DNA of 53,976 nt, from positions 1-53,976 of the IMG/VR virus record IMGVR_UViG_3300030329_005429. One strand, 5' to 3'. Below, piece after piece: positions 11,043 to 53,976 of the stretch. Made by a program: the position numbers and the translations under genes. The DNA is from a virus. The stretch's first letter is position 1. Every line of letters begins with the position of its first letter. Under the pieces are notes generated by a model. That model was not told the DNA's origin and did no database searches. It worked only from the letters and a program-made list of their open reading frames with translations.

Positions 11043-11237
11043 ATGAAAAGGCCAGTAGTTAAAAAAATAAGGAAATATGTCCCAGATGTTAAAATGATAA
11101 TAACAAAAGATTTGCAAATATGTGCTCTTGTAGGTAAAAAAGAAATACCTTGGGATGAGTATCAAATAAGAAAGAATATGGGTAGAAACGAACCTTGTTA
11201 TTGTAATAGTAATAAGAAATATAAAAAGTGTTGTTAG
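11043..11237 (+). CDS. Small protein with C-terminal SEC-C zinc motif
   Basis: This 64-aa protein ends MGRNEPCYCNSNKKYKKCC, which matches the SEC-C signature (GRNxPCPCGSGKKYKxCC) found at the C-terminus of SecA and in many standalone proteins. The Cys residues should bind one zinc. The basic N-terminal 40 residues form a small domain of unknown type. SEC-C peptides bind ribosomes or proteins, so a host-translation or secretion target is conceivable but unproven. It ends just before the next gene's ribosome site. Confidence 0.75.
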   Translation: MKRPVVKKIRKYVPDVKMIITKDLQICALVGKKEIPWDEYQIRKNMGRNEPCYCNSNKKYKKCC

Positions 11238-12795: not shown

Positions 12796-13218
12796 ATGCA
12801 AGTAAACCCACAAGTAGTAGACGAGACTAACCATGGTAAATTGTATGATGATAAGTTATGGAAGGTCTTACAAATAAAAAAATACATAAAACCCACTTTA
12901 TCTAGTCAAGATTGCCCTAAAAGGTATAAAATATATTATCTTGCAAAGAAAAAAGTATTAAGGATATTCGGTGAATCTATATCTCTAAAAGGATTAGTAA
13001 GGATACCGAGTTATGTTATGTATGTAAATACAGATAGCTATAAAAATGGAGAAGTAGTGAAGAAGACACAGATAGACCATATTAGTGAGTTTGTATTTAA
13101 AACCAGCTATTTTATGGCTAAAAGGGCAAAGGTATATCGTAAATCAGTTTGCGGTGTATGCCCAAAAATAGAATGTTCTTTCAATAGTAAATACAAAGGA
13201 GAAGTAAATGGCAAATAA
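12796..13218 (+). CDS. Hypothetical protein upstream of the ubiquitin-like gene, 140 aa
   Basis: This 140-aa basic protein overlaps the ubiquitin-like gene by 11 bp, so the two are co-translated. The N-terminal 110 residues look alpha/beta (YKIYYLAKKKVLRIFGE, LVRIPSYVMYVN). The C-terminus has CGVCPKIEC near residues 119-127, a possible zinc knuckle. I do not recognise a family. Its position makes it a candidate fifth member of the conjugation cassette, for example a substrate adaptor or the modified target, but it may be only an operon neighbour. Confidence 0.7.
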   Translation: MQVNPQVVDETNHGKLYDDKLWKVLQIKKYIKPTLSSQDCPKRYKIYYLAKKKVLRIFGESISLKGLVRIPSYVMYVNTDSYKNGEVVKKTQIDHISEFVFKTSYFMAKRAKVYRKSVCGVCPKIECSFNSKYKGEVNGK

Positions 13219-13441
13219 TAATAAAGCAAGCGTATTCTTAAATGATTATGACCACGGTCATAAGCCAAGAAAAGTAGAATATGAAACTTTAGGTGATTTA
13301 GCATCAGGTGAGAATCTTACAACTGATAAAAAAGAAGTAACCATAATGATTAATGGTGCACCTGAAGATGATTTAGGAAAAGCTTTAAGAGATAATGATA
13401 CTGTAACATTTTCTAGAGTTCATCACAAATCAGGAAAATAG
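13208..13441 (+). CDS. Ubiquitin-like beta-grasp protein
   Basis: This 77-aa protein has an AGGAG site and an ATG inside the preceding gene. The C-terminal half reads VTIMINGAPEDDLGKALRDN then DTVTFSRVHHKSGK. It matches the ThiS/MoaD/ubiquitin pattern: a strand ending in NG, an acidic turn, L-[RK]-D-[GN]-D-x-V, a last strand and a Gly near the C-terminus. The end is SGK, so removing one Lys would expose a terminal Gly for adenylation. Size equals ubiquitin. Together with the following E2-, JAB- and E1-like genes this makes a conjugation system likely. A sulphur-carrier role as for MoaD/ThiS is the main alternative. Confidence 0.75.
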   Translation: MANNNKASVFLNDYDHGHKPRKVEYETLGDLASGENLTTDKKEVTIMINGAPEDDLGKALRDNDTVTFSRVHHKSGK

Positions 13442-13456
13442 TTAGTATTTAAAAAT

Positions 13457-13525
13457 TAGAAGGGGTCAAGATAAGTTCAAATCGAAGATGGCAGTGTCTT
13501 TAATTTTGCTTTGAGACTCCTTCTA
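13457..13525 (+). ncRNA. Structured RNA element between the ubiquitin-like and E2-like genes
   Basis: TAGAAGGGGTC (13457-13467) pairs with GACTCCTTCTA (13515-13525), 11 bp with one G-U, enclosing 47 bases. A TGA precedes the right arm, as in array elements 2-5. The ribosome site GGAGA (13532-13536) and ATG (13541) of the E2-like gene follow immediately, so folding could adjust the ratio of ubiquitin-like protein to E2-like protein. Confidence 0.55.
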
Positions 13526-13540
13526 TTATTTGGAGAAAAT

Positions 13541-14785
13541 ATGACAAGAAAAGTAGAGAAGTTAGTAAACCTTGTAGAAAGCAATGTTAATCATTCTAAT
13601 CTATATCCAACAAGAGTTATTGCAAAATGGGAAGAAATAAAGGAATTATTCATATTACAAGCTGAATTAGTAGAAAAGAACTTCGAATTACTTGTTACTG
13701 CAAGAAAAAATCCTGAATTTAAAGTGATTTTAAGAGATATTCAAGTGAATACTGATGAAGGTGTTGTTAATATGGGTAATTATATATTGCATTTTAAATT
13801 AAATGTATGGGCTATGAAATGGAGTATTAGCTTTAATCAAGCAATAACTACTGTTTATGGAAGAAAGAAAATAATCCATGGATATCATCCTCATTTAAGT
13901 GGTGGAAGACCTTGTTTAGGAGATTTTAGAGATGAATATAATAATATGCTGGAAAATTTTACAATAATGGACGCAGTTTCTAAATGTAAATCTTTTCTAG
14001 AATGTTATAATAGATTAAATCCTTACCATGATATAGCATATTATATTAAAATAGAAGCAGAAATACCAGGTACTGATGATATAATGGTATGGGAGGGACT
14101 TACTAAAGCCTATACAATGTTTAGAGTAAATGACATTTATGTACCAGGAATGGATAGTTTGGTATTAGGGTCGAGAGATTGGGGAAAATTCAGTAAAATA
14201 ATAGCATCTATAATAGAAAGATATCAATGTAGCCAGCAAAGAGCTGTTGCTATATTTATAAGACACGCAAGATGCTTCTTTTATTTTATAAATAGAAAAT
14301 TAAGCGAATTTTCAGGAATGATTCCAAATTCTGAACTAAATAAATGTGGCTGGTTCTTAGCACATAATGGAAGATACTATCATATAAGAGATTATCCTAT
14401 ATATCTTGATTCAGAAACAACTAGAAAATTAAGAGCATATGATAGAGTTAGATATTTAGATACTTATATGGAAAGATTACATGAAATATTGGACTTAGAA
14501 ATGTCATTTGTTGATGATTTGACAAAATGGGAACATAGAAGTCTAGGATTGTATTCTGAAACATTTAATGGTATATCTATATATCAGGAATTAGGTGATA
14601 GAATAATAAATGAAGGATTTGAAAATCAGAAAGGTGTCCATGAGACATTAGTAGAAGCAGGATATTACATAAGAAGAAAATATCTTGAATATTTAAACTT
14701 AGAAAAACAAAGGATAGAAAATGAAATTATCAATTTCAATGAAGATGGAAAACAAAATAACTTATTTGCTCAACCATTATCTTAA
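13541..14785 (+). CDS. E2-like ubiquitin-conjugating protein (predicted)
   Basis: This 414-aa protein starts at the ATG at 13541 with GGAGA upstream; a TTG 30 bases earlier falls inside a stem and is rejected. Around residues 116-129 it has HPH, six residues, then CLGDF. This mirrors the E2 core HPN-x7-C-L-D, with C125 as the predicted thioester cysteine, and is followed by helices ending near LNPYHD, like the E2 segment LL..PN..d. Flanking regions of about 110 and 270 residues are helical and unlike classical E2s, so it may carry a substrate- or E1-binding domain. Its neighbours (Ubl, JAB, E1) strongly support the call. Activity is untested. Confidence 0.72.
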   Translation: MTRKVEKLVNLVESNVNHSNLYPTRVIAKWEEIKELFILQAELVEKNFELLVTARKNPEFKVILRDIQVNTDEGVVNMGNYILHFKLNVWAMKWSISFNQAITTVYGRKKIIHGYHPHLSGGRPCLGDFRDEYNNMLENFTIMDAVSKCKSFLECYNRLNPYHDIAYYIKIEAEIPGTDDIMVWEGLTKAYTMFRVNDIYVPGMDSLVLGSRDWGKFSKIIASIIERYQCSQQRAVAIFIRHARCFFYFINRKLSEFSGMIPNSELNKCGWFLAHNGRYYHIRDYPIYLDSETTRKLRAYDRVRYLDTYMERLHEILDLEMSFVDDLTKWEHRSLGLYSETFNGISIYQELGDRIINEGFENQKGVHETLVEAGYYIRRKYLEYLNLEKQRIENEIINFNEDGKQNNLFAQPLS

Positions 14786-15524
14786 TATTGAATGGAGTGG
14801 TCCATGTTGGTATTCATACAAAAAGGATGAAGATGGATTTCCAACAGAGTTCAAATTAGAACATTTTGTATTATTAGATAAAGGAACAGCATCAGCAACT
14901 GATTGGTCAGGAGAACAGTTCGGTAAAATCTTTCCAATTATCATGAAGAAATACCCAAAACTAAAAAAATGTGTTGTAGGAAATATACATTCACACCATA
15001 CTATGGGAGCATTCTTTAGTGGAACAGATATAGAGCATCTGGAAGAAAATGCAAATAAAGACTTTTATCCAAGCCTTGTAGTAGCAAGGTCAGGAAAAGC
15101 ATTAAAAGCATTTGCATTTAGCTATAAAGACCAATACAATAACATTCATAGATATGAAGTTGATGAAGATGATATAGCAGTAAAGATTCCTAAACCAGAA
15201 AAAGAATGGTTAAGAGAAATAAAAGAAGCAGAAAAAGTATCAAAACCTGAAGCAATAACATTAGCTAGTAATAATAGAGGGTATTATAATGCTTTTAATC
15301 GAAACCACAATCAATCCTATTTATTCAATTATCATCAAAATGGATGGGGAGAAAAGGTATTAGATGAAACAGACCCAAAAACTTGGACGGATGAAGAGAA
15401 GATAGAAGCCTGGCAAGAAGTAATGGATGATATAGAAATGGGGTTTCAAGATACAATAGAAGCTAAAAAAAGGCTAAAGGAAATAGGTGTTAGCTGGGAA
15501 GGAGTAATAGTTGGAAATAAATAG
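14721..15524 (+). CDS. JAB/JAMM metallopeptidase (deubiquitinase-like)
   Basis: This 267-aa protein has the exact JAMM zinc motif H90-S-H92-x7-S100-x2-D103 (HSHHTMGAFFSGTD), preceded by strands (KKCVVGNI) and followed by YPSLVVARSGKALKAFAF, all usual for the JAB/MPN fold. The catalytic Glu expected upstream may be in FKLEHFVLL. It has a roughly 150-aa C-terminal extension ending in an acidic helix-turn-helix-like tail. The gene overlaps the E2-like gene by 65 bp and the E1-like gene by 14 bp. Likely roles are trimming the C-terminal Lys of the ubiquitin-like protein and removing it from targets. Phage tail-tip JAB proteins exist, but this gene is in the replication unit. Confidence 0.85.
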   Translation: MKLSISMKMENKITYLLNHYLNIEWSGPCWYSYKKDEDGFPTEFKLEHFVLLDKGTASATDWSGEQFGKIFPIIMKKYPKLKKCVVGNIHSHHTMGAFFSGTDIEHLEENANKDFYPSLVVARSGKALKAFAFSYKDQYNNIHRYEVDEDDIAVKIPKPEKEWLREIKEAEKVSKPEAITLASNNRGYYNAFNRNHNQSYLFNYHQNGWGEKVLDETDPKTWTDEEKIEAWQEVMDDIEMGFQDTIEAKKRLKEIGVSWEGVIVGNK

Positions 15525-16191
15525 TTCTAGGTTTTTAAGAAATAAAGATTTAATAGACCAAAAGAACTTAAAAGGAAAAGTAACTTTAATAGGAGCAGGC
15601 GGAATTGGGTCTGCTCTTATTCAGTTATTAGCAATAATGGGATGGAAAGATGTAATGGTATGGGATGATGATGTATTAGCTCCTCATAACTTATCAACTA
15701 CAACTTATCAACCTAAATACCTTGGAAAAGATAAATCTTTAGTAGCAATGGAAACATTCAATTCATTTTCAGATAAATCTCAAAAAATAAATCATAAACC
15801 ATTTAGATGGTATTCAGATAGTAAGATAAGCCCTAGAGTATTCTTAGGCCCTGACAATATGGATACCAGGAAAGAGGTTTATGAGAAATGGGCTTCATTA
15901 AGCAATAGGGAATTTCTTATAGATATGAGAATGGGTGCATTAGGAATGGAAATAATAACAGCAACAAAAGAAAGCGATAATTATATGGATACTTGGATGG
16001 ATGGTAATTCCATAAAAGACGAAGCTTGTACTATGAAACATACTATATTCACAGCTAATATAGTAGCTGGTTTTGGTATAAATCAGGCATTTTGCGTATT
16101 GCAAGGAATACCATATTATTCGTATATTAACATCAGTTTAACTCCCCTTATCTGTAGGAAAGAGGGGTTTACTGTCTCTAGAACATTATAA
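15511..16191 (+). CDS. ThiF/E1-like activating enzyme
   Basis: This 226-aa protein starts at a TTG at 15511 after GAAGGAG. It has the Rossmann nucleotide loop GAGGIGS (28-34), the acidic strand end VWDDD (50-54), N60-L61, and lysines at 73-75, all as in the adenylating domain of ThiF/MoeB/E1. C173 in EACTMKH, followed by helix NIVAGFGINQAF, is placed like the E1 catalytic or sulphur-transfer cysteine. The Arg of the usual NLNRQ is replaced (NLSTTTY), and there is no CxxC zinc pair. It should adenylate the ubiquitin-like protein's C-terminus and pass it to the E2-like C125. It is shorter than most ThiF proteins. Confidence 0.82.
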   Translation: MEINSSRFLRNKDLIDQKNLKGKVTLIGAGGIGSALIQLLAIMGWKDVMVWDDDVLAPHNLSTTTYQPKYLGKDKSLVAMETFNSFSDKSQKINHKPFRWYSDSKISPRVFLGPDNMDTRKEVYEKWASLSNREFLIDMRMGALGMEIITATKESDNYMDTWMDGNSIKDEACTMKHTIFTANIVAGFGINQAFCVLQGIPYYSYINISLTPLICRKEGFTVSRTL

Positions 16192-16203: not shown

Positions 16204-17070
16204 ATGGACATTCAAATAAGAAAAGTAAAGAATGATTGGAAAGAGATGCCTAATGGTATTACCTATTATTTTATTGGTCAACCTAAGACTGGTAAAACAA
16301 CCGCAGCTTCTAAATGGAGTAGCAAAGGTAGTGAAGGCGTTCTTCTAATTGATACTGATTTAGGTAGTGATTTTGTTGAAAATGCAAACACTATAACTGT
16401 ATCATCATTAAATGAACCTATAAGAGAAAAAATGAGTGAAGATGGTAGAAAAATAGTAAATAAAAAAGGTCAACGGGAGGTAGAAATAGTTCCTCCAGAA
16501 GAAAGAGGATTTTATTATCGTTCAGGTGATAATAAAGGAAAGCCTATGCCTGTTTATTCTATGAGTGAAGTATTGCAATGGATTAAATCCAATTGGAATA
16601 AAGTTCCTTATGATACTATAGTAATAGATACAATTGACCAGGTAAATAGATGGATTGAAGAAAAAGTTACAAGAGAACTTAATATAAGAGCAATGGGTGA
16701 AGGACAATGGGGTGCTGACTGGGGTATGGCAAGAAGAAATAATGTCGATATCATAGTTAGATTCCAAAAACTAATGAAGCAGCTTGGGGGGAATTTAGTG
16801 TTGATAAGTCATAGTAAAACTACTACTATAACAGATGGAAAAGCACAATTGTCCCCTGAATTACCAAGAGGATTAGCATATAGCATAACAGCTAAAGCGG
16901 ATGTAATTGGATATTCTACAGTAGATAAAGAATCAGGAGATTATAAAATATCATTTGAATCTTATGATGAAAGAACTGTAGGAAGTCGATTAAAGCCTTT
17001 AGCTCAAAAAAGCTTGCTATTCGATTATAAAACAATATTAAATGAAATCTTAACTTATAAGGAGAAGTAA
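16204..17070 (+). CDS. RecA-like AAA ATPase (Sak4/AAA_24-type)
   Basis: This 288-aa protein has Walker A GQPKTGKT at residues 25-32, a strand ending VLLIDTD near 46-52, Walker B-like DTIVIDTID near 136-144, and LVLISHSKTT, where His could be the gamma-phosphate sensor. Length and order match phage AAA_24 nucleotide-binding proteins and Sak4 recombinases, which load on ssDNA bound by a phage SSB. The next gene encodes a probable SSB, so recombination-dependent replication is a likely role. It has an AGGAG site and starts 12 bp after the E1-like gene. Confidence 0.85.
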   Translation: MDIQIRKVKNDWKEMPNGITYYFIGQPKTGKTTAASKWSSKGSEGVLLIDTDLGSDFVENANTITVSSLNEPIREKMSEDGRKIVNKKGQREVEIVPPEERGFYYRSGDNKGKPMPVYSMSEVLQWIKSNWNKVPYDTIVIDTIDQVNRWIEEKVTRELNIRAMGEGQWGADWGMARRNNVDIIVRFQKLMKQLGGNLVLISHSKTTTITDGKAQLSPELPRGLAYSITAKADVIGYSTVDKESGDYKISFESYDERTVGSRLKPLAQKSLLFDYKTILNEILTYKEK

Positions 17071-17073
17071 AAT

Positions 17074-17691
17074 ATGTCAGGTATAGTTAGACCACAAAAA
17101 TCTGGTTCAGGAGGAGGAAGTTTTCTAGGATTTAAAGAGCTTGGAATAGTAAGCTTTGAAGATAAATCAAATAACTTCGATTGGGCAGATGTATATCTTA
17201 AAGTAGAAATGAAAGTAGAGGGAAGTCAGTATACAAGAAATTTATTTGTATCTGGCTCGCATGAAAAAGATGATAGTGGAAATATAATTGACAGTTCTTT
17301 ACTTAAAAGAATATATTACTTATTTGATGCAATTGGATTTCAAGGTGGATTAAACCTGAAAGGTCAATTTGTAGATGAAAAAGAAAATATAATCCCAGAT
17401 ATAGCAGGTTATCTAAATGATAACTTCGCTCCTAATCCTATAGAAGACCCATCAATGAGTCTTGTAGGCTATCTGTATAAAGAAGCTCCAAGAAAGAATG
17501 GAGATGGAAAAGTGTATAGTCGTATACATAACTTTCTTCAACCTAATACAGCAAAAGGCTTAGAGGTATTGAAAGATAGAATCCAGTTCCTAAAATCAAA
17601 GAACTTTATAAAAGAAGCTGATGAAACAACAATAAATGGAGTTCTACCAAAGAATGTAGAGATAGAAGGTGCTATAACAGAGCAGCTATAA
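17074..17691 (+). CDS. Putative single-stranded DNA-binding protein
   Basis: This 205-aa protein follows the RecA-like ATPase by three bases and abuts the primase-helicase gene. It has a Gly/Ser-rich N-terminus, then beta-strands (ADVYLKVEMKVEG, YTRNLFVSG) suggesting an OB fold, and an acidic, hydrophobic C-terminus ending EGAITEQL, as often seen in SSBs for protein contacts. Gene order ATPase-SSB-helicase is common in phages. No diagnostic motif proves ssDNA binding. Confidence 0.6.
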   Translation: MSGIVRPQKSGSGGGSFLGFKELGIVSFEDKSNNFDWADVYLKVEMKVEGSQYTRNLFVSGSHEKDDSGNIIDSSLLKRIYYLFDAIGFQGGLNLKGQFVDEKENIIPDIAGYLNDNFAPNPIEDPSMSLVGYLYKEAPRKNGDGKVYSRIHNFLQPNTAKGLEVLKDRIQFLKSKNFIKEADETTINGVLPKNVEIEGAITEQL

Positions 17692-19494
17692 ATGGAAAGG
17701 TTAATAGAAGTAGCGTATGGGCATCCCTCATCAAGAGGGGTGCTTGTACCAATAACTCAATTGCAATCCTATTTAAAACAAGCAATGGATGAGAATAAAT
17801 CTTTATATAGAAGTGTTTATCTATATGATGAAAATGTCTTAGAGCATATGCAGAAAGTAGGTAGTGTTAGAAAATATATGGGCCAAAGATATATTGACAA
17901 TGTTATAGTTGATATAGATAAAAAGGATAATTCAAATAATCAAACATTAAAAAATGCTAGAAATATCTTTTATAAAATAGTCAAAGCTGGCGCTCCATAT
18001 GATGCTATACTCCCTTTATTTAGTGGCTCTGGATATCATCTTTTATTATCAGGAAAGTTGTTTAGTTTTAAAGACTCTAAAGACCTACCTTATGTAGTGA
18101 AAAGTACAATGAACTCTTTATTAGGTAAAGATGTAGACCCTTCAGTTTATACAAGGACAGCTATATATAGAGTGTCACATACAATAAATAATAAAACTGG
18201 GTTATATAAAATACCTTTAAAGCATGAAGAGTTCTTAAATTCTGATGCCGATAGAATATTAGAGTTAGCAAAGACACCAAGAATAGAATTTAAATCAAAG
18301 AAATTAACATCAAAAGGCCAACTATTAACATTCGTTACAAAGAATGAAGATATCCCAAGTCTTAAATCATTTACAAATATAAGAGAACCTAAAAATATAG
18401 TTCCTTGTGTACAAACCCTTTACAATAAAGGACCAGAAGAAGGCAATAGAAATATGACAGCTATGCGTATAGCAAGCCATTTTAAAAGAAATGGAATACC
18501 GTCAGAAGCAACAAAAGCCGCTCTTATGCATTGGAATAAAGATTCATTAGAAAATGATTTCCTGATGGAAAGAGTGGAATCTGTATATAATAATGGTTAT
18601 AGATATGGATGTAATGATTCAATTTTAAAAGATAATTGCAATACAAGATGCATACATTTTAAAAGGAGGGACTATTTGGTGGATGTTAAAAACTCAAATC
18701 AATTACAAGAAGAGCTGCATAAACGAATGACAACTGATTTTACAGGAAGAGTAATAAAGCTGAGTAAATTATTAGGACTTCCTGATAAAGAAATAACAAT
18801 ATATCCAGGTGAATTAGTCACAATATTTGGACCAACAGGATGTAATAAAACAACCTTTGCCCAAAATCTTATATTAGGATATGATATGTTAAATGATAAA
18901 ATAATAGACGATAAAGTTCCAACTTTATTTTTATCTCTTGAATTATCAGATTGGTATATGCATAGAAGAAACCTGCAAATAGTAGCAAATAGAACAAAGC
19001 AACAAATAGATAGTAATTATGAGAAAATCTATAATGATAATAAGGATAAACTTGAACATGTAATGATTCAAACTGTATCTCCTACAATAGAACAAATTAA
19101 GGAGAAAATACGGGAATTAAATCCACTTTGTGTTGTTATTGATTATATAGACTTATTAGGCACTCCTGTCGGATATAAGGGCGAATATGAACAAATTAGA
19201 TACATATCGCATTCATTAAGTAATATGGCAGTGAACCTTGATATAATAATCATACAAATATCACAAGTATCAAGAGATTATTCAAGAAATGAAGTTTTAG
19301 ACCTTTATGCAGGAAAAGGCTCTGGAGCTATAGAAAATGCCTCAAGAAAAGTTATAGGCATTAATGGTAAGGCAAATTCAAATCAGAAAACAGTAGAAAT
19401 GTTTAAAAATAGTGATGGGGATTTGTTTAATGATGTTAAACTAGAATGGCTTCCGTCATTCAGATTAAGGAGGGTTAGTGAAAGTAACGATTGA
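17692..19494 (+). CDS. Primase-polymerase/DnaB-type helicase fusion
   Basis: This 600-aa protein joins two enzymes. N-terminal archaeo-eukaryotic primase: DID at 74-76 (VIVDIDKKD), SGSGYH at 111-116 and R160 in AIYRVSH are the three catalytic motifs. The middle has a PriCT-like helical segment (about 245-290) and Cys residues 307, 316 and 320 that may bind a metal or iron-sulphur cluster. C-terminal RecA-fold helicase: Walker A GPTGCNKTT at 380-388, Walker B VVIDYIDLL at 481-489, ISQVSR near 517. It would prime and unwind at the fork. No phage DNA polymerase is present, so it must hand over to the host replisome unless the primase domain also extends DNA. Confidence 0.92.
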   Translation: MERLIEVAYGHPSSRGVLVPITQLQSYLKQAMDENKSLYRSVYLYDENVLEHMQKVGSVRKYMGQRYIDNVIVDIDKKDNSNNQTLKNARNIFYKIVKAGAPYDAILPLFSGSGYHLLLSGKLFSFKDSKDLPYVVKSTMNSLLGKDVDPSVYTRTAIYRVSHTINNKTGLYKIPLKHEEFLNSDADRILELAKTPRIEFKSKKLTSKGQLLTFVTKNEDIPSLKSFTNIREPKNIVPCVQTLYNKGPEEGNRNMTAMRIASHFKRNGIPSEATKAALMHWNKDSLENDFLMERVESVYNNGYRYGCNDSILKDNCNTRCIHFKRRDYLVDVKNSNQLQEELHKRMTTDFTGRVIKLSKLLGLPDKEITIYPGELVTIFGPTGCNKTTFAQNLILGYDMLNDKIIDDKVPTLFLSLELSDWYMHRRNLQIVANRTKQQIDSNYEKIYNDNKDKLEHVMIQTVSPTIEQIKEKIRELNPLCVVIDYIDLLGTPVGYKGEYEQIRYISHSLSNMAVNLDIIIIQISQVSRDYSRNEVLDLYAGKGSGAIENASRKVIGINGKANSNQKTVEMFKNSDGDLFNDVKLEWLPSFRLRRVSESND

Positions 19495-19714
19495 TTTGCC
19501 AGATGAAGACTACCTATTATTGAAAACAAGAGCAGCAAAAGAAATGCGTTCAATAAGAGCTCAGGTAGCTTATGATATAAGAGAAGCTGTAAATAAAGAT
19601 ATTTCAGATAGGAAAGAATGGCGAAAAATGAATAATGAAGCAGCTAAATTTGCTAAAAAGACTCTTTTGGATACAATGACACAAGAATCTGTCGGTCCTA
19701 TGGAGAAATTATGA
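19478..19714 (+). CDS. Ribbon-helix-helix DNA-binding protein
   Basis: This 78-aa protein starts at a GTG at 19478 after AAGGAGGG, overlapping the helicase gene by 17 bp. The first 45 residues (MKVTIDLPDEDYLLLKTRAA and the helix SIRAQVAYDIREAV) match the Arc/CopG ribbon-helix-helix fold: one beta-strand then two helices. RHH proteins bind operators as dimers, so it may autoregulate the early unit. The C-terminal 30 residues are helical and charged. Confidence 0.75.
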   Translation: MKVTIDLPDEDYLLLKTRAAKEMRSIRAQVAYDIREAVNKDISDRKEWRKMNNEAAKFAKKTLLDTMTQESVGPMEKL

Positions 19715-20244
19715 GCACAACAAAGGAACTAGTAGGCGAATACATCGATATAGAAATAAGAAAGGAGTACGCAGAAAGTCTTCAAGAAAGAAACGAATGC
19801 GATAATGCTCTCCAGGTAATACAAACAAAGCTAAAGAAGAAGGTTAAAGGTATAGACCATATAGTTATGGAAATGGATAAGAAATTAGCACTTGTAGTTG
19901 CTGAAGAAGATATTATATCCAAAGAAATAGCCAGATTAAAGAGAAGAAAAAATGCTATAAAAAGAAGTAAAGGATATTTCAATGAGGTTCTTTTACCAAT
20001 AGTAATAAAAGAAGTAGGTCAAAATGGAGTATTCGAAACTGAAACAGCAAAATATAAGTTATATGAAACATATGGAAAAGTAGATGTTAATGAAATAGAA
20101 TGTCCTAAAGACTATCTAAAAATCAGGATGGTTGAAGATATAGATAGAAAGAAAGCCAGAGCTGATGCCATAACAGCTCATAAAGAAGGCAAAGAGATAC
20201 CTGGTGTTAAAATAGCACTAGTAGAAAGAGTTAGAAGAACTTGA
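19711..20244 (+). CDS. Gp157-family protein
   Basis: This 177-aa protein has a long charged coiled coil (about 15-90) then a strand-rich end with FETETAKYKLYETYGKV, CPKDYL, DRKKARADAI and GKEIPGVKIALVERVR. This order, including the closing KxGxxIPGxxL segment, is that of Siphovirus Gp157, a family often encoded beside recombination or ssDNA-annealing genes. Its molecular activity is not well established; a role in replication or recombination is inferred. The ATG overlaps the previous stop. Confidence 0.8.
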   Translation: MSTTKELVGEYIDIEIRKEYAESLQERNECDNALQVIQTKLKKKVKGIDHIVMEMDKKLALVVAEEDIISKEIARLKRRKNAIKRSKGYFNEVLLPIVIKEVGQNGVFETETAKYKLYETYGKVDVNEIECPKDYLKIRMVEDIDRKKARADAITAHKEGKEIPGVKIALVERVRRT

Positions 20245-22215: not shown

Positions 22216-22370
22216 AATTTACTCCAAATAATTTTTATAATAAATAAGAAAATAACAGCTCCTAATACAGAAAAAACATCAACAATATGATTTCCACTAT
22301 CACTAGATATTGTTCCTACAGGAGTTTCTATAGTAAATTCCCTATCTTCTGTAAATTCTTTATTTACCAT
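22212..22370 (-). CDS. Small single-helix membrane peptide, 52 aa
   Basis: This frame starts at the ATG sharing a base with the stop of the giant gene (TAATG at 22370) and ends TGA, overlapping the next ATG. The first 28 residues are acidic and polar; the last 22 are a hydrophobic helix (VFSVLGAVIFLFIIKIIWSKL). It may be a tail-anchored membrane peptide involved in DNA ejection or lysis. Overlaps on both sides support it. Confidence 0.6.
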   Translation of the reverse strand: MVNKEFTEDREFTIETPVGTISSDSGNHIVDVFSVLGAVIFLFIIKIIWSKL

Positions 22371-25300
22371 TATTCTTCCTCTCTTTGCTCTTTTACAAAT
22401 TTATGCATTTTAATATATGGGAAGCCAGTCATTCTTTCTACAGTTTGTATAGGATTTTCAGCAGCTATTTTAACATCTCTTGCAAACCTACCAAAAGGCA
22501 ACATTGTCATTGCATAGTAATCTCCCATCCTACTCCAATCGTCATCTAATAAGGCTTTAAATGTAGGAGGCAATAATCTTAAAGCTGGAGGTGTTACCAT
22601 CTGTAAAGGAGCTATTGCTTTAGGGTATGCTCCAAAGAAAGCCCTGTCCCTCTCTTTTTCATCTCCAAATATCCAATCAGAAAAATCTTGAAACCAATTT
22701 AAAGGAGCAGGAAGAGTATTCTCAAAGATACTATATGTAAATACATTAGCCAAAGCAAACAACATCATATCTGTAGACATTACTCTTTTAAATCTTTCAA
22801 ATTCCATTGTTCCTTTTTGATACCCTCTTTCAGCCGCTTCTTTATATACCATATTCCTAAAAGCAACCGAGTTCCAGGCCCATAATTGAAACCTAGAAAC
22901 TATTTTACCTAAAGAAGTAGCAGCAAAAGCAGGCCTATTGGCTGCATTGTATAAAAATTGAGTATCTTTTACACCTCTTTTTGCCCACCATATTAAAAAT
23001 GGATGTTCAGCTGAATCTACAGCCCCTTTAAACATATCTTTAGCTTGTATATAATGAGCTAAGAAAGAGTCTCTTCTTAATCTTCTTTCTGAAACTCTCA
23101 TAAAGTAAGCTGCTTTATTAAATAATGAATCAGACAACCCAGAACGCTTCCAAACCTCTTTTAAAGTTTTGTCTTTAACAGATGGGTCTTTCTTTATCTT
23201 TTTAACTAACATTTCAAGGCCTTCTTTTACCTTTTTATCTTTAGCGTAATCAGATAATCCAATTTCTTTCCTTAAAAACTCTTCAATAATACCTAAACTT
23301 TCAACCCATTTATAAGTATCCTCTAAAGATTTCCATTTTGTATTTATATTATCGCTTAACCATTTTATATCTCTTGTTTTATTCCAATGTCTTAATCCAA
23401 CAGATTGAACTGTCATTGTAGTACCACCAAATATATTAGCAATAGCAGTTTTAGGATGAGCTAATAATGTTGCCAATTGATATTTAGCTTCTAAATTAGA
23501 CCAATGTTTTAACTTGTCATAAGTCATAATATCTTGTAACTCAGGAGGTAAATCTTTATTACCTAATCCCATTTTCTTTGCTATTTTGTTTATTCTATTT
23601 TTAACAGTAGAATCAGCAAACCAATAGTAAGGTGTTCCCTTTAATGCCATTTTAGGATTATTTACCATATAATCAGGAAGAATATCAGGAAAACCCATTG
23701 ACCTATTAACAAAAAGCTTATAATGATTAGTCCAGGCATCTATATTATCCCAAGCACTCTTATCTGTTATTTTTCCATTTTTATCTGTATATTTCATTTT
23801 ACCTGATTTTTCAAAATTATCAACTATCATCCTTGATAATATCTGAGATGCATTTTTATAATAAGCATCCATAACATTATTCGCATATTTCTCAATAGCA
23901 GCAGGACTCCTATCATAACCAGGTATATGCAATTCTCTTGCCATTTGATGTCCTGATTTCACTACAGATTTATCATAATCAATAATATCAGCAGTTTTAT
24001 CTTTTATTTTTTGAACTATATCATCATATATTCCCCATTGCTTCCAAGTTTCAAGACTAAAATCATCTGTAATATTTCTCATCTTAAGAGATAAAGCAGC
24101 AGCTTTAGAGATTAAACCTTCTTTAGTTGTTTTAGTATAATTCTTATTAGCCAAATCATCCATAGCAGATTGAAGTGCTTTCTCAATATGCTTTCCTTCA
24201 AAATTTACATGAGGAAAGAAATCTTTTCTATATTTAGTTCCCATTTCCTCTAATCTTCTTCTTAATGCAGATTGTAATTTAGGATTCCTAGTCATCTTTA
24301 ATTGTAAGTGAGTTCCAATCCTGTTCATACCATCAACACCAATATCTAATACTTTATCTATTGCTATATTCTCTTTTATAGCGTCCATCATATCTTTAGT
24401 GAATAATTCTAATCTAGCTTGTTCAATACCATTTTCATCTCTATATATATATTTAGATAAAGTTTTAGGATTACCTCTTAACCATTTATTGTAAATATTA
24501 TCAGTAGTTTTTGAATAAAGTTTGTTAATTTCATCCATAATCTGCTGACCAGTCATTTCTTTTGTTTTACTACCAAACCTTACATTGAATACTTTCTTAT
24601 CTACTGCAGCTATCCTTTTTAAAATCTTATCCTGTAACTTTCCATCTTTAACTCCATAAGTCCTTGCTTTTGCATTCATAGATAAATCAGAAGCTTTAAA
24701 AGCATCTAATTTCAATCCAACAGGAAGTTCTCTTTGATATGCTGCTAATTCAGCTAATTCCTGACCTTCTGTTATTGCATTTAAAAATTGGAGTTTATCT
24801 CTAAAAATATCTTCTTGCCTTCTTTTTTCATGCATAGCAAAATCACCTAAATTAGTGATAGCATAGTTTAATTGTCCCATAGCATGAGCAGGTTCATATA
24901 TAATACCTGTTTCAGCCTTTCTATCTAATGGATTCCAAAACATTCCAATTCTTTCTACTAGCTTAAAATCCTTTCTTAACCAGGCTTTATCAGAAGTCAT
25001 TGGAAATGTATTATAAAAATATTTACTTAAAATAGGGTCACCTTTAGTCCATTTTACAAATTGCTTTCCAAGCCAACCTAAATGCTGTCCTGAACGCCTT
25101 GAACCTAATAAATGATTAAAAGCTCTCATATCCTCAATAGTCATTGCATCAGGAGATTTTAAGAATAAATTCTTCATATAACCTTCAACTTTAAGCCCAA
25201 TACTCGGCCCGTAAAAATCTAAATGGTCTAATATTTCATTATATAATCTTTGATTCTCGCTAGATAACGGGACTCTTTTTTGATTTTTATTCTCAGCAAC

Positions 25301-28300
25301 TCTTCTAAATGCTGGTATCTTATCTAAAGCTCTAAGAGTTTCTAATTTAGCCTCTCTCCCCTCACCTAAATCTGCCTTTACACTTGTATCTTCAACTTTA
25401 ACATCAACAGGCTCACTCATTCTTCTTGATATTTCTAATAAATCTTTCTTTAATGATTCTGATATAGGGTCTGTAGTCTCATTAAAAAGTTTTTTATAAT
25501 TATCCCAATATTCACTTACCATTCTATCTGATATAGACTTACTTGAAAAGCCCAATCTATTTACACCAGTAGCATTTATATTCTTTCCTGATGTTTCCAT
25601 AGCAATTTCTTCAATAAAGCTTTTATCTTTTTTATTTCTCAGTCCATAAAATGTCTTTAATTCGTTTGCATATGGTATTCTGAATCCACTTAATAATAAT
25701 GCATCAAAAGCATCCTGTTCTAAATCTGTTAAACTTTCTTTGTATTTACTAATAGCAGCATCTGTTTCTGCTTGATTAACTGACCTTGTTCTTTTAGGGA
25801 GTGGTGTTTCAGACTCTATAGTATATTCAATCTTTGCTTTATCTAAGGCTTCTTTTTGTGCTTGATTTATATTTGAAACCTCTCCTTTTTTATCCTTTAT
25901 AACATATTCATAAGAACCTTCACTTTCTCTATTTAGTAAATAACTATCTTTACTAATAGCATCTGCTTCTAATGCGAGTTCTTGAAGTTTTTCCTTTGGT
26001 AATTGTCTCCAATACTCTATCCCTGTTTTATAGCCTGTCATAACAGATAAATCATTACTAAAAAAATCTTCACCCTGTTTTAATTTATCACCCTCTAATC
26101 TTCCTTGTAAAAACCTAGCTATATTTTTATTAAAAGGAACTACAAATCCTCCCCTATAAAATGCATTAGCTATCTTTTTATTTTCAGGTCTTCTAACCTC
26201 TTCATTGTAATCAGTATAAAGTTGTTGAACAGAATCTAAATTTACCCTTTTTTGATAACCATCTTGCCAATCGACATCTTTCAAAGTATCTGCTTGTTTT
26301 GATATAAAAGATATTCTAGAATCAGCAGGAATATTGTTTATAAAACCAGCTTTTTCTTTTCTTTCATGATATCGCCATTGTCTGTTATTAGCTATGTCCT
26401 TACCATAGTATGCTGTATTTATGTTTGAATAATTTTGAACAGCTTTTCTCTTCATAAATGATGTAACTTTATCTGTTCGCATTTTACCTGTTTTATTTTT
26501 AGCAGATGTCACTTCAAAAAGAGAGTCAAACATTCTAGAGTAATATAACTCAGGATTTACTATACCTATTTCATCTAATGGGTCAGAAGGAAAAGCAATA
26601 GATGCTCTTAATTTTTCTAATGCTTTTTTCAAAGCAGTTTTTTCAGTCTTTAATTTTACAGTAAATGTCGTCTTATTCTTATCTCCAACATCTATATCAA
26701 AAGTCTTACTCTCAGAATCAGCTAATTCATTTATTTTGTCGGTATATAAAGCTATTAAATTTTGCTTCGCAACCACAGCAGGCCCCAATCTATTACGACC
26801 ATCTGCAGCTATATCAGATATAGTTTTTCTATGATTCATAGAATACATAAGAGAAGGGCTTCTTCTTAGATTTATATTTGAACCTGTAGTTACAGTAAAG
26901 TCTTTTCTGTAACCTTCCTTATTATCAGATACTCCTTCATACCAATCGTCTGGATTGATTTTTTTATCCTTAGAAAGTTGACTAAACTCTTCAGGAGTCA
27001 ATACATCTTTCTTGCCTTTTTGACCATATTGAGATTTCTTATAATATCTTAAAAACTCATCTTTATTTTGATTGTATACATCTTTATATTTACTCTTAAC
27101 ATCCATAAAGAGCCACATTTTATCACCATCAGCATCAGCTCCACCAAGCTTTCTCATTATCTCCCCATGTATCAATCCTCCAAAGCCTTTTCTACCAGTG
27201 AATCCACCAAATTTTAATGCAGCAGTTCCACTAATAGAATCAATAGGAACTCTTGTAGTTAAGGCTTCAAAGAATTTAGGTATTTCTTCTTTTAAAACAG
27301 GATTGGTAGTTTTATTGTATAAATCCCAAAGTTCACCTAGATTCCTTGTTCCCCTTATAGAATCTATTTGAGATTTTAAGATTCCAGAGGCCTCTAATGT
27401 TGCTATTAAATTATCATAATTATGCTTTTTATGCCTATGTCCATCATCTAGAAAGTAAATATCTTTTTCTGTTTGAAGTCTTTTTGTTAAGGGATTATCT
27501 TGAAATTCATAATCATATACACGCATTCTAGAAGCTACTGAATTAGGCACTTTAGGTCTAGTGACCTGATGAACTATATAATTCTTTAAAATAGCCTCTC
27601 TATAAGGATTGTTCATTTTATTTAAGAATACAGAGATATGGTCTCCAGCTAATGATAAATTTCTATCACTAACTGAAGTATACTCATTCATTTCTTTCAT
27701 TACATCAGTATATTCTCTTTCACTTTTTTCACCTTCCTCAATAGCCATAGATTCAGCATCTTTATTGATTCTTAGCATTTTTCTATATACTTCTACTTGA
27801 AAATCTCCAAATCCAGGCTCTGTTAATGCTTCTGCTAATTCTGAAGCCCCTATTTTTTCTATATTATCAATTAAAGGTTTCATTAATTTAGGGTCTTTAC
27901 TAGCAAGGTATTCTGAAAGCATTTTATTATACCTATCTTCTCCCTTAAAAGACTTCAAATTATAATCTGTGAAAAATTCATTTATAATTTCAGGTGTAAC
28001 GCCTGGAGAAATAGTCGATAAAGTAGAACCTATTTGCTTTGGCAATCTTTGGTCTTTATTCCCTGATTTTGAAGATACAACCTCTGATAATATAACTCTC
28101 AAATCTTTTGAATTAACTTGGAACATATAATCTCTCATAAGTTGTTCTTGTGAGACATCAAAACGCTTTCCTTTGGCATCATAATCCCAAAATTCAAATT
28201 TACCATCTTTCATTTTACCAAAAACACCTTTTCTACTTCCATATTGCTTAGCTGATGTGGTAGGTAGCATTTGATGCAACCCTAAAGATTCCATAGCTTT

Positions 28301-31300
28301 AGATTGTCTAGGGCCCGCATCAAAATGCATATGCTTCCCTAGCAATGCTCCTGGACCATCTTCTGGTGCAGATATAATAAAGTTCTTGTTTTGACCACTT
28401 TCATTATCTGAAAAATGCAATCCTGCTTCTTTATTTATAGCTATCAAAACATCATCTCTAATAGGACTCCCCCCATCAAAATGCTCTATATTATCTGTAT
28501 TTTTCTTAATTTCCCAAGGCTTCTTTCTCAATCCAAAACCTTTAGGAATATCATCATTAGTTTTTAAGATGATAGTATTTAAGTTTCCATCAACAATATC
28601 AGGAATGTGTTTTAAATATTCAGGGTCAACAGAATGCCCATTAGTAAACCATACTTGCAATCTTTTATTTAATGATATAGGGTCATTTATAAAGCCTTCT
28701 CCAGCTATTTTCTTATAATTAGCAATATTAGGTTTTAATCCATTCATAGATAGATTATAAAATACATTAGAAACCATACCACGATTATATAGCTCATTAG
28801 CTTTTAAACTTCCACCTAAAAACTTGCTATATTTCATTCTAAAATCACGCATATCAGTATCTATATGATTTTTATCTAATTTCATAGATTTTATAATAAG
28901 GTCTTTATTATTATTTATTTCTTGATTAGTTAAAACCTCAGCTCTAGGATGCCATTTATTGTAAATCATAACCTCACTATCAGCTTTACCTCCAAAGTAA
29001 TACATTCCCTTGCCAAGCATTTCTTGATGCATATTACCAATTAATTCATTATAAGCTTTTTCAGCAGTTTCTCTGGCTTTTTTCTCTCCTATTTGAAATT
29101 TTAAATCATTATATATATTTTCTCTAAATTGTAATAATCCAACTTCTTTATTTACACCATTTCCACCTTTTTGAACTACTCCATCTACTCTAATAATAGG
29201 TCTTTGAGATGCATCAGTTATATCTACAGTGTTATTCATCTCTTTTCTATAAACTTCTTCAACATAGAAATTTACCATAGGAATACTTTTTCTATCTCCA
29301 GCCATATTCTGAGGACTTTCAGGGTCTAAATGGCTAATTTTAATATCTTTTATATCTTTAAAGGTAAAACTATCATTCTTTCCTTTTGTATAATTAAAGG
29401 TAACATATGGAGATGCTACAATCATATTCCTTTCGCCAATTCTTCTCTTTAGATAATTCCTGAAAAAGTTTCTTTCTGGGGCATTTTCATTAGACATATC
29501 AAATTTTTCACCATATCTATTTTTCATCCAATCAGAAAGTTCATTTATATCATCATTAAAGTTTTCAGCTTTTTCTAACAATTTTTGATGCAAGTCCTCT
29601 ATACTGACTTTTTTACGAGCAGCGTCTATACTACCATCTTTACGAATCCAAGAAAAGGAAAGATTATCTTCTGCCCAACTTTTAATACGAGGCATAGCAT
29701 CTATTTGAATCTGAACTCCAGTATCTTCTCTTTCAGCTATTGTCTCTAAAGCTTTTTCGACTTCTTCTCTAGCTTCCCCTAATTTAGGTTTATGAAGCTT
29801 TGCTATTTCATCTTGTAGAAATTTATAAGTTCTTGGCGCTCTTTGCGATAATTGAGACCTCTGAGTATTACCAAAGCCCTCAGTTGGAATTACAACAGGC
29901 TTATCTTTTGGTATTTTTTCTATAGCTTTTTGAATAACTCTTTTATTTAAAACAAAATCATCATCAGTAAAGAATGATTCATATCTTTCTCCTGGCAATC
30001 TTTTAGTAGGTATTCCGAAGGCATTTGGCTCATTTCTTACAGAAGCATTTCCTGATGAACCTCTCTTTAAAAAGTCATCTGCAAATATAAATACTTTATC
30101 CTTATTTTTCTGAACATACTCAGGAGTCATTTTGTCTATTGTGTAAAAATCTGGAGTTTTCTTAGAAAAAACTTTTGCCTCAGTTCTTTCTTCTAATATC
30201 TTAGAAACTTCTTCTTTTGATACAAAGCCTTTGTCTATAGCCTCTTTTAAGTAAGGATAGTCTTCTCCAAATCGCTTTATCATCTCTGTAACTTGAGTTT
30301 TTTGTATACTAGCTCTTGAATATTGTTCTACAACTTTTTTAGTTTCAGGAGACCAATCTTTTTGGAGCAAATCTTTTTCTAATTTTATAAGCATCTTATC
30401 AGCAGTTACCTCTTTTTGTAAATCCTGATATCTATATTTCATTGCAGTTCTTCTTGCAGAAGGAGATTCTTTAAATCCAAAATAAGCACCTAATAAGTAT
30501 TCATATATTTGCTCAGGAGCTGTAGCTCCTCTCATAGTAGAAGGAAGTCCTTGGAATAAAGCTCCAGCAATAGAGCCTAAGGCATTCTCTCCTAAAGCAT
30601 TTTCGCCTGGGATAGCAGATTTAAGAAGATTACCAATTCCCCTAAAAGCTCCCCCTGCTACTCCACCATGTATGAATGAATCAACCATAACATCCACACC
30701 TTTTGTCCAAGAAGAAACAGCGGATGCTGTACCTAAATGAAAAGCTCCTTCAGCCATATCTCTTGCAGTATCGTTATATAATAATTTAGATACAGTAGAA
30801 ACTGCTTCGCTTCTCTTTCCAATAGCAGTTGTAATAGCCTTAGCAGCATGTTTAGAAACAGGCTCTGTAACAGCTTTAGCAGCCATCATAGGTACTGACT
30901 TACCCTTTAAGTAAGAAAGTGCCCTTAAGACCCCTATACTGCTCTTAGCCGCTGCTCCTGGTATATAACCTACAAAACCACCAAGATGTCCTAAGCTACG
31001 AGCTATACCTTCCCATTGATTTTTAGGTTGCTCTCCTACTTCTAATGTAGTGAATCCTTCAATAAAACCAGAACCCGCTTGTTTTATCGATTCTAACATT
31101 TTAAATTCTTCATCGGAAGGGTCTCTATTGAACCACATACCATAATGATTTGCATGCTCTTCTATTTGAGAGACTAAATTTTCATTAAAATTCGAAGGTT
31201 TAGAATAATAATTCTTTATTAATCGCTTTGTTAAATCACGATTATATTGAGGTTTAAATTTGTATTCCTCTAGGTTATCCCCAGGTTGAATGTTTTCTGC

Positions 31301-31303
31301 CAT
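22370..31303 (-). CDS. Giant virion protein with RNA-polymerase-like DxDGD motif
   Basis: This 2977-aa protein occupies one sixth of the genome. Residues 1-300 include Gly/Ala-rich hydrophobic stretches typical of ejected internal virion proteins. Near 400-480 is NEPNAFGIPTKRLPGE, a pattern I recall from large phage multi-domain proteins. Near 1360-1400, VPIDSISGTAALKFGGF leads to GGADADGD (D1390, D1392, D1394), resembling the metal-binding DxDGD loop of two-barrel RNA polymerases. The last 350 residues have several hydrophobic helices. Its place after ejection proteins suggests entry into the cell with DNA. RNA polymerase activity is a hypothesis: the residue between the first two Asp is Ala rather than bulky. 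No tape-measure role is needed in a podovirus. Confidence 0.75.
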   Translation of the reverse strand: MAENIQPGDNLEEYKFKPQYNRDLTKRLIKNYYSKPSNFNENLVSQIEEHANHYGMWFNRDPSDEEFKMLESIKQAGSGFIEGFTTLEVGEQPKNQWEGIARSLGHLGGFVGYIPGAAAKSSIGVLRALSYLKGKSVPMMAAKAVTEPVSKHAAKAITTAIGKRSEAVSTVSKLLYNDTARDMAEGAFHLGTASAVSSWTKGVDVMVDSFIHGGVAGGAFRGIGNLLKSAIPGENALGENALGSIAGALFQGLPSTMRGATAPEQIYEYLLGAYFGFKESPSARRTAMKYRYQDLQKEVTADKMLIKLEKDLLQKDWSPETKKVVEQYSRASIQKTQVTEMIKRFGEDYPYLKEAIDKGFVSKEEVSKILEERTEAKVFSKKTPDFYTIDKMTPEYVQKNKDKVFIFADDFLKRGSSGNASVRNEPNAFGIPTKRLPGERYESFFTDDDFVLNKRVIQKAIEKIPKDKPVVIPTEGFGNTQRSQLSQRAPRTYKFLQDEIAKLHKPKLGEAREEVEKALETIAEREDTGVQIQIDAMPRIKSWAEDNLSFSWIRKDGSIDAARKKVSIEDLHQKLLEKAENFNDDINELSDWMKNRYGEKFDMSNENAPERNFFRNYLKRRIGERNMIVASPYVTFNYTKGKNDSFTFKDIKDIKISHLDPESPQNMAGDRKSIPMVNFYVEEVYRKEMNNTVDITDASQRPIIRVDGVVQKGGNGVNKEVGLLQFRENIYNDLKFQIGEKKARETAEKAYNELIGNMHQEMLGKGMYYFGGKADSEVMIYNKWHPRAEVLTNQEINNNKDLIIKSMKLDKNHIDTDMRDFRMKYSKFLGGSLKANELYNRGMVSNVFYNLSMNGLKPNIANYKKIAGEGFINDPISLNKRLQVWFTNGHSVDPEYLKHIPDIVDGNLNTIILKTNDDIPKGFGLRKKPWEIKKNTDNIEHFDGGSPIRDDVLIAINKEAGLHFSDNESGQNKNFIISAPEDGPGALLGKHMHFDAGPRQSKAMESLGLHQMLPTTSAKQYGSRKGVFGKMKDGKFEFWDYDAKGKRFDVSQEQLMRDYMFQVNSKDLRVILSEVVSSKSGNKDQRLPKQIGSTLSTISPGVTPEIINEFFTDYNLKSFKGEDRYNKMLSEYLASKDPKLMKPLIDNIEKIGASELAEALTEPGFGDFQVEVYRKMLRINKDAESMAIEEGEKSEREYTDVMKEMNEYTSVSDRNLSLAGDHISVFLNKMNNPYREAILKNYIVHQVTRPKVPNSVASRMRVYDYEFQDNPLTKRLQTEKDIYFLDDGHRHKKHNYDNLIATLEASGILKSQIDSIRGTRNLGELWDLYNKTTNPVLKEEIPKFFEALTTRVPIDSISGTAALKFGGFTGRKGFGGLIHGEIMRKLGGADADGDKMWLFMDVKSKYKDVYNQNKDEFLRYYKKSQYGQKGKKDVLTPEEFSQLSKDKKINPDDWYEGVSDNKEGYRKDFTVTTGSNINLRRSPSLMYSMNHRKTISDIAADGRNRLGPAVVAKQNLIALYTDKINELADSESKTFDIDVGDKNKTTFTVKLKTEKTALKKALEKLRASIAFPSDPLDEIGIVNPELYYSRMFDSLFEVTSAKNKTGKMRTDKVTSFMKRKAVQNYSNINTAYYGKDIANNRQWRYHERKEKAGFINNIPADSRISFISKQADTLKDVDWQDGYQKRVNLDSVQQLYTDYNEEVRRPENKKIANAFYRGGFVVPFNKNIARFLQGRLEGDKLKQGEDFFSNDLSVMTGYKTGIEYWRQLPKEKLQELALEADAISKDSYLLNRESEGSYEYVIKDKKGEVSNINQAQKEALDKAKIEYTIESETPLPKRTRSVNQAETDAAISKYKESLTDLEQDAFDALLLSGFRIPYANELKTFYGLRNKKDKSFIEEIAMETSGKNINATGVNRLGFSSKSISDRMVSEYWDNYKKLFNETTDPISESLKKDLLEISRRMSEPVDVKVEDTSVKADLGEGREAKLETLRALDKIPAFRRVAENKNQKRVPLSSENQRLYNEILDHLDFYGPSIGLKVEGYMKNLFLKSPDAMTIEDMRAFNHLLGSRRSGQHLGWLGKQFVKWTKGDPILSKYFYNTFPMTSDKAWLRKDFKLVERIGMFWNPLDRKAETGIIYEPAHAMGQLNYAITNLGDFAMHEKRRQEDIFRDKLQFLNAITEGQELAELAAYQRELPVGLKLDAFKASDLSMNAKARTYGVKDGKLQDKILKRIAAVDKKVFNVRFGSKTKEMTGQQIMDEINKLYSKTTDNIYNKWLRGNPKTLSKYIYRDENGIEQARLELFTKDMMDAIKENIAIDKVLDIGVDGMNRIGTHLQLKMTRNPKLQSALRRRLEEMGTKYRKDFFPHVNFEGKHIEKALQSAMDDLANKNYTKTTKEGLISKAAALSLKMRNITDDFSLETWKQWGIYDDIVQKIKDKTADIIDYDKSVVKSGHQMARELHIPGYDRSPAAIEKYANNVMDAYYKNASQILSRMIVDNFEKSGKMKYTDKNGKITDKSAWDNIDAWTNHYKLFVNRSMGFPDILPDYMVNNPKMALKGTPYYWFADSTVKNRINKIAKKMGLGNKDLPPELQDIMTYDKLKHWSNLEAKYQLATLLAHPKTAIANIFGGTTMTVQSVGLRHWNKTRDIKWLSDNINTKWKSLEDTYKWVESLGIIEEFLRKEIGLSDYAKDKKVKEGLEMLVKKIKKDPSVKDKTLKEVWKRSGLSDSLFNKAAYFMRVSERRLRRDSFLAHYIQAKDMFKGAVDSAEHPFLIWWAKRGVKDTQFLYNAANRPAFAATSLGKIVSRFQLWAWNSVAFRNMVYKEAAERGYQKGTMEFERFKRVMSTDMMLFALANVFTYSIFENTLPAPLNWFQDFSDWIFGDEKERDRAFFGAYPKAIAPLQMVTPPALRLLPPTFKALLDDDWSRMGDYYAMTMLPFGRFARDVKIAAENPIQTVERMTGFPYIKMHKFVKEQREEE

Positions 31304-53807: not shown

Positions 53808-53976
53808 TTAATGCTCTATTAAAATAACTTCTCCACCATCATCATTTACAGCTTGTGCATGCACCCAAATATAATGACTATCATTTATCCCATTTACCTT
53901 TTTTTGCAATGTTTTAAATTTCAAAACAGGAACATCCATTGTTACAACTGCTCCAGCAGGCAAAGATAGAGAGTTT
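53808..53976 (-). CDS. Virion-associated hypothetical protein, 3' part (gene crosses the circle join)
   Basis: This is the C-terminal part of the 108-aa gene that starts at 258. Stop TAA is at 53808-53810; bases 53877-53976 repeat the window start apart from the mismatch at 53975. On the circle it ends 13 bp before the next gene, whose AGGAG site overlaps this end. See the entry at 1-258 for function. Confidence 0.8.
   Translation of the reverse strand, partial: NSLSLPAGAVVTMDVPVLKFKTLQKKVNGINDSHYIWVHAQAVNDDGGEVILIEH
53877..53974. repeat. Terminal direct repeat, right copy
   Basis: Identical to bases 1-98; see left copy. One mismatch occurs in the last two bases of the window (53975). Confidence 0.95.

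Follow-up and report, generated by a model that had tools for sequence, protein, structure and literature searches.

We analyzed a 53,976-nt stretch of marine viral DNA, IMG/VR virus record IMGVR_UViG_3300030329_005429 (here called the window), and found that it carries four adjacent genes for a ubiquitin-like modifier (Ubl), an E2-like protein, a JAB/JAMM peptidase, and a ThiF/E1-like enzyme. Terminase, portal, and major head genes mark the genome as that of a phage. We take it to be circularly complete at ~53.9 kb because 98 identical bases form a direct repeat at its two ends (1-98 and 53877-53974). The open reading frames (ORFs) and the order of the four genes agree with the original prediction, which had been made from the sequence alone; all features are on the + strand. 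ATG 13541 is the most likely start codon of the E2 gene, while an alternative upstream TTG at 13511 gives 424 aa. The start of the JAB gene overlaps the end of the E2 gene by 65 nt, out of frame.

Table 1. Features of the cassette and of the genes that follow it in the window (AF2, AlphaFold2).
Feature	Position	Strand	Description and evidence
Ubl, ubiquitin-like modifier	13208..13441	+	77 aa, beta-grasp, ends ..HHKSGK; AF2, Foldseek; D64/S75/G76 invariant in 38
S75-G76-K77 codons, predicted JAB cut after Gly76	13430..13438	+	SG invariant in 47 relatives, variable trailer
E2-like conjugating enzyme (putative)	13541..14785	+	414 aa; AF2 fold, PDB fold matches
HPHLSGGRPC, E2 active-site motif, H116-P117-H118 to C125	13886..13915	+	H, P, H, C invariant in 39 cores; UBE2W likeness
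QNNLF, sliding-clamp-binding-like motif, E2 C-terminal tail	14753..14767	+	QxxLF excess in tails; consensus in PMC12309361
JAB/JAMM peptidase	14721..15524	+	267 aa; E24, H90, H92, S100, D103; Pfam Prok-JAB 4e-7
ThiF/E1-like activating enzyme	15511..16191	+	226 aa; C173; Pfam ThiF 3e-15; hhalign to ThiF
Sak4-like RecA-fold ATPase, next gene after E1	16204..17070	+	PHROG 124 E=4e-26; cassette neighbor in relatives too
Conserved replication-operon protein	17074..17691	+	No family match in Pfam/PHROG; kept in relatives
Primase-helicase (PriCT_1 + DnaB_C)	17692..19494	+	PHROG 19 2e-32; Pfam DnaB_C 8e-16

The product of the first gene, described earlier as a beta-grasp protein, has a predicted ubiquitin fold. 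Its AF2 model is a beta-grasp (predicted local distance difference test, pLDDT, 81), and the best Foldseek matches of this model in the PDB are SUMO-2 (E=6.5e-4), Mth1743, SUMO1, and ISG15. No Pfam family matched the Ubl, and its profile also touches ThiS. D64, S75, and G76 are invariant in 38/38 aligned sequences, so that the protein carries the C-terminal glycine of a Ubl, as a single Gly that is mostly followed by a trailer. Among the Ubls of 47 relatives the Ser-Gly end is invariant, and 0 to 96 variable residues come after it: nothing in 6 loci, 1 residue of many kinds, 3 (IVA), 9, or 96 (locus L059). That the Ubl is constant up to the Gly and variable beyond it is the processing signature of a precursor trimmed after the Gly. 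The C-terminal SGK of the original prediction is present; most plausibly it is the end of a precursor, with the mature Ubl ending at Gly76. The maturing enzyme is presumably the JAB.

Both the peptidase and the E1 scored above the Pfam cut-offs. The JAMM site is complete: the JAB has the E..HxHx7Sx2D pattern as H90-S91-H92-x7-S100-x2-D103, and E24, H90, H92, S100, and D103 are invariant over 14 JABs from marine and crAss-like phages. The E1 has GAGGIGS, DDD, and C173 and with them the GxGGxGS loop, adenylation Asp, and catalytic Cys of the E1/ThiF superfamily. N60, K75, and D115 (adenylation residues) and C173 are invariant over 15 E1s. In an hhalign comparison with ThiF (E=2e-9), ThiF C184 lay opposite C173. 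The E1 lacks the CxxC pairs of ThiF/MoeB and a rhodanese domain.

For the 414-aa protein, AF2 gave a pLDDT of ~93 over the first 160 residues and mostly <60 over the remainder. The top 13 PDB folds for this model were all E2 enzymes (UbcH5b/c, E2-25K, Atg10), with the best match at E 0.084, probability 0.94, and a TM-score to the target of ~0.5; no E-value was <0.001. The AF2 core shows the elements of the UBC/E2 fold, an alpha helix, a four-strand meander, and a Cys after HP(N), and the N-terminal domain is predicted to fold like UbcH5. The active-site motif reads H116-P117-H118-x6-C125-L-G in the window, and H116, P117, H118, and C125 are invariant across 39 E2 cores that are 14-51% identical to the window core. 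The median pairwise identity of the E2s between relatives is 16%. No Pfam E2 family matched any of the 39 members, no NCBIfam or PADLOC model recognized the protein, and a search of its profile against PDB sequences gave only noise. As judged by these sequence comparisons, the E2-like protein is a new E2 family, which agrees with the earlier impression that it did not look like known E2s. The large helical additions described at the same time are of low confidence in the model and end in a clamp-binding-like tail.

To collect relatives, we searched IMG/VR with the E1, which returned 18 loci, and with an E1 profile, which returned at least 438 relatives, 80 of which were kept. The E1 was needed as the query because the E2 is too divergent, and single-protein E2 scans found no homologues. 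The final set comprised 90 non-redundant marine viral loci, of which 47 were complete, 33 began in or at the E2 gene, and 10 were cut further in. The order Ubl-E2-JAB-E1 was kept in 90/90 loci. Wherever a locus had the entire E2 gene and >150 nt upstream of it, a Ubl was present; the E2 and JAB genes overlapped in 80/80 loci, and the JAB was kept in all loci whose contig reaches it. The pairwise identities of the four proteins correlate (r 0.83-0.89), as expected for a unit inherited together; shared ancestry alone would also suffice for this. In the first 18 relatives, the genes downstream of E1 were a Sak4-like ATPase, a 205-aa conserved protein, and a primase-helicase, wherever matched and covered by the contig. 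The genes 5' of Ubl differ among relatives; just upstream of it in two loci (L010:1465-2328 and L092:2030-2893) is a protein with YRCSYCYMRR, which resembles a radical SAM/photolyase-like motif. No cassette was found by tblastn against plasmids, and JAB-profile and E1-profile scans of genomes from 84,980 species found no provirus and no cellular copy. We conclude that this is a real, conserved, phage-encoded Ubl cassette whose parts are computationally secure apart from the E2, the assignment of which draws on fold, motif, and context.

Searches by tblastn with the E1 and JAB led to related sets in crAss001 (gp79-gp76), other Steigviridae, and Flavobacterium phage Fpv3, where the existing annotation is only "ThiF," "metalloprotease," or hypothetical. 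The order is again Ubl, E2-like, JAB, ThiF, and in crAss-like phages a primase adjoins the set. The Ubl domain ends in [KS]SG (or KSGG) in 11/11 of the crAss-like and Fpv Ubls, and 11/11 of the E2-like proteins have HSH...CxG. Alignment of the marine and crAss profiles placed HPH...C on HSH...C (P 0.0035) and KSG on KSG (P 4e-4), in exact registers although with modest statistics. Thus, crAss001 gp79-gp78-gp77-gp76 and the Fpv homologues resemble the window in order, Ubl KSG, HxH...C, JAMM, and ThiF, and their E1 and JAB are detectably homologous to those of the window. They differ from it in having an extension of the Ubl after KSG, a longer JAB, HSH for HPH, and no clamp-like E2 tail. In crAssphage cr106_1 (L023:608-1811), the Ubl gene is interrupted immediately after ..KKIKSGKF by an HNH endonuclease gene, and the C-terminal domain is a separate ORF. 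The jumbo phages Xanthomonas PhiXhv-12 and Erwinia Ep032 encode a Ubl (..ASGG), an E2 (HPH...CLG), and an E1, with no JAB evident; the annotation of these sets is equally uninformative. Their 892-aa E2-like protein (L022:2172-4850 and L108:2172-4850) has a dense Cys-rich end of ~60 residues that may be an integral zinc/E3-like module. A weak match in Xanthomonas phage XbC2 was dropped for want of the HPH...C motif. The original prediction had known bacterial relatives as cellular or plasmid-borne, and the phage sets show that this was wrong. In the literature that we searched, whose coverage is incomplete and does not establish priority, we found no description of the crAss001/Fpv set as a Ubl system or of the cassette described here. 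We also found no paper there that mentions both crAss001 and ThiF, and the papers that mention both crAss-like phages and ubiquitin-like proteins appeared unrelated; the literature covered mostly excluded subscription papers and bioRxiv.

The C-terminal tail of the E2-like protein ends in QNNLF in the window and in QGTLF, QASLF, QTDLF, QAELF, QSELF, QLSFETL, and similar strings in relatives. Bacterial clamp-binding peptides follow the consensus QL[S/D]LF or QxxLF, with positions 1, 4, and 5 critical (PMC12309361). Because the codons of the E2 tail share their DNA with the JAB start in another frame, we simulated tails with the JAB peptide fixed, synonymous codons drawn by the usage of each locus, and an open E2 frame required. 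Strict QxxLF occurred in 14/36 non-redundant tails versus 3.9 expected, and QxxLF or QLS[FLI] occurred in 21/36 versus 9.8 expected. QLS[FLI] was found in 7 tails, where it lies in a different register against JAB and was expected at 2-9% each. We therefore rejected the explanation that the JAB frame fully forces the QxxLF tail: it favors Q and L in one register yet accounts for only part of the matches. The nominal probability of 2e-11 should not be read literally, since the loci are relatives of one another and we settled on the motif only once we had seen the tails.

The computed evidence consists of four folds or families, invariant catalytic residues, strict order, co-varying divergence, and a Ubl Ser-Gly end with a variable trailer. 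From this we infer the chemical steps, the sequence in which the Ubl is passed on, its substrate, and the location at the replisome. The cassette is likely a phage-encoded ubiquitin-like conjugation pathway. In such a pathway, the JAB would trim the Ubl precursor after Gly76, and the E1 would adenylate Gly76 with ATP and hold the Ubl on C173. The Ubl would then be handed to C125 of the E2-like enzyme, which would transfer it to a protein amino group, probably within or close to the replication machinery. The JAB could also remove the Ubl. That conjugation acts at the replisome is our best reading. Several points weigh against this interpretation. Its basis is computation, and the replisome location rests on gene neighbors and a short motif. 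The E2 assignment combines a predicted fold (best Foldseek E 0.08, above 0.001) with the motif and gene context, and no Pfam E2 family matches the protein by sequence. The E2 has HPH instead of HPN, and its chemistry may differ. Finally, the E1 consists of one small domain and has no additional domain for the catalytic cysteine, as in ThiF/MoeB, which serve sulfur transfer.

We therefore asked how well other functions would account for the cassette. The E1 could make a Ubl thiocarboxylate for a modified base, tRNA, or cofactor, with the E2-like protein as a scaffold. In size and layout the E1 comes closest to ThiF/MoeB, C173 aligns with ThiF C184, the Ubl profile touches ThiS too, and nucleotide-metabolism genes lie near the crAss001 clusters. 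However, the E2 catalytic motif is invariant and an E2 fold is predicted, the peptidase is retained in all marine loci reaching it, and the ORF list, Pfam, and PHROG revealed no rhodanese, ThiG, or MoaE partner among the operon genes. Sulfur transfer is thus quite improbable. Since the cassette is phage-borne, it might instead tag and disable a host defense protein or compete with host Bil/CBASS conjugation; Bil and Cap2 apply the same chemistry against phages (PMC11354881, in part). Against this, the cassette holds a constant position among replication genes across very diverse marine phages and lies beside replication and nucleotide genes in crAss-like phages, and this fixed setting suggests a core role. 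Counter-defense genes usually vary between relatives, and we consider such a function improbable. The long C-terminal extensions after SG in crAss-like and L059 Ubls would suit a Ubl that is cut by JAB and serves, free or fused, in regulation without being conjugated. Such a regulator would need neither E1 nor a catalytic E2, yet both keep invariant active-site residues, and this explanation is very improbable.

A sharper form of the conjugation reading, rather than an exclusive rival, is that the QxxLF tail of E2 binds the host beta clamp and that the clamp or replisome proteins are tagged, functionally like Rad6 at PCNA. The excess of the motif fits this, as do clamp-like peptides arising in two different registers against JAB and the position of the tail in a low-confidence part of the E2 model. 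No DNA polymerase was recognizable in the complete window genome, and use of the host replisome is therefore plausible; crAss001 has its own DNA polymerase, and its E2 tail has no clamp-like motif. In the genome ORFs there is only one further clamp-like match, QVTLL, which is looser and internal. On the other hand, the motif was picked post hoc, related loci inflate the tail probability, the JAB frame alone favors Q and L in one register, and the motif is missing in 15/36 tails and in crAss-like E2s. We hold clamp-docked conjugation as a tentative possibility. That E2 docks on the clamp during viral replication to tag it or clamp-bound proteins as a counterpart of Rad6/PCNA, with HPH possibly favoring N-termini, is doubtful.

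The cassette lies before replication genes in the window, as predicted. The RecA-like ATPase is Sak4-like and the primase-helicase is of the DnaB/PriCT type; the name "SSB-like" for the protein between them is unverified. A Mu Gam-like/Sipho_Gp157-like protein is also encoded in the replication operon (19711-20244). Elsewhere in the window, a 64-aa protein (11043-11237) has an end, GRNEPCYCNSNKKYKKCC, that resembles a SEC-C zinc motif, and two ORFs of 2977 and 1497 aa (22370-31303 and 42783-47276) had no Pfam/PHROG match in the parts scanned.

To our knowledge, the bacterial Ubl-E1-E2-JAB systems described so far belong to cells, plasmids, or defense islands. The cassette of the window is instead part of the replication gene set in a large marine phage group; it had gone unrecognized in cultured gut crAss-like phages as well as in hundreds of contigs from marine phages. 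The chemistry is of a known kind; the phage-replication setting, the E2 family, and the possible clamp link are new. If the cassette does conjugate, then phages use ubiquitin-like signaling for their own replication, and a working clamp motif would mean that eukaryotes are not alone in linking a Ubl tag to a sliding clamp. Because cultured crAss-like phages carry the related form, these ideas are testable in a lab phage at once.

Comparison with known systems sets the cassette apart from each of them. Bil operons (BilA-BilB-BilC-BilD) likewise have four separate genes for Ubl, E2, JAB, and E1. BilA carries two Ubl domains, and BilD combines an inactive and an active adenylation domain with a Cys domain (PMC11354881). 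In contrast, the window has one Ubl domain and a single-domain E1, of which the BilD model matches residues 17-123 only (17.5 bits); it is not a Bil operon. Bil is a bacterial defense, whereas the window cassette is phage-borne and replication-linked. The PRTRC/Iyer 2006 class 6d systems also encode a Ubl with a C-terminal Gly, an E2-like protein, a JAB, and a ThiF-like E1 together. Their E2 lacks a histidine before the Cys, and their operons add a helical protein (PMC1779556), whereas the window has HPH before the Cys and no gene between Ubl and E2. Scores of 35.5 bits for PRTRC_ThiF (cut-off 144.75) and 15.6 for PRTRC_A (cut-off 101.8), with no match to other PRTRC models, place the cassette outside PRTRC, and Prok-E2_D was absent. 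CBASS type II/6a-6b (Cap2) has an E2-E1 fusion beside a nucleotidyltransferase or MBL, whereas the window genes are separate and have no such neighbor. The Bub/6e class combines a poly-Ubl protein, a catalytically dead E2, and a JAB-E1 fusion (PMC1779556); the window differs in its single Ubl, its E2 that keeps the Cys, and its separate JAB and E1. Lambda/T1 tail genes I and K (TAPI/TAPK) pair a phage Ubl with a JAB, for which a cut at the terminal Gly has been proposed (PMC1779556). They have no E1 or E2 and serve tail assembly, not replication. Human UBE2W shares no detectable sequence relationship with the phage E2, but its active site is HPHx7C-L, and the string of one relative, L028 (HPHINDNGKPCLG), has the same layout as that of UBE2W (HPHVYSNGHICLS). 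UBE2W tags protein N-termini, and by analogy one may speculate that the HPH of the phage E2 implies N-terminal tagging as well.

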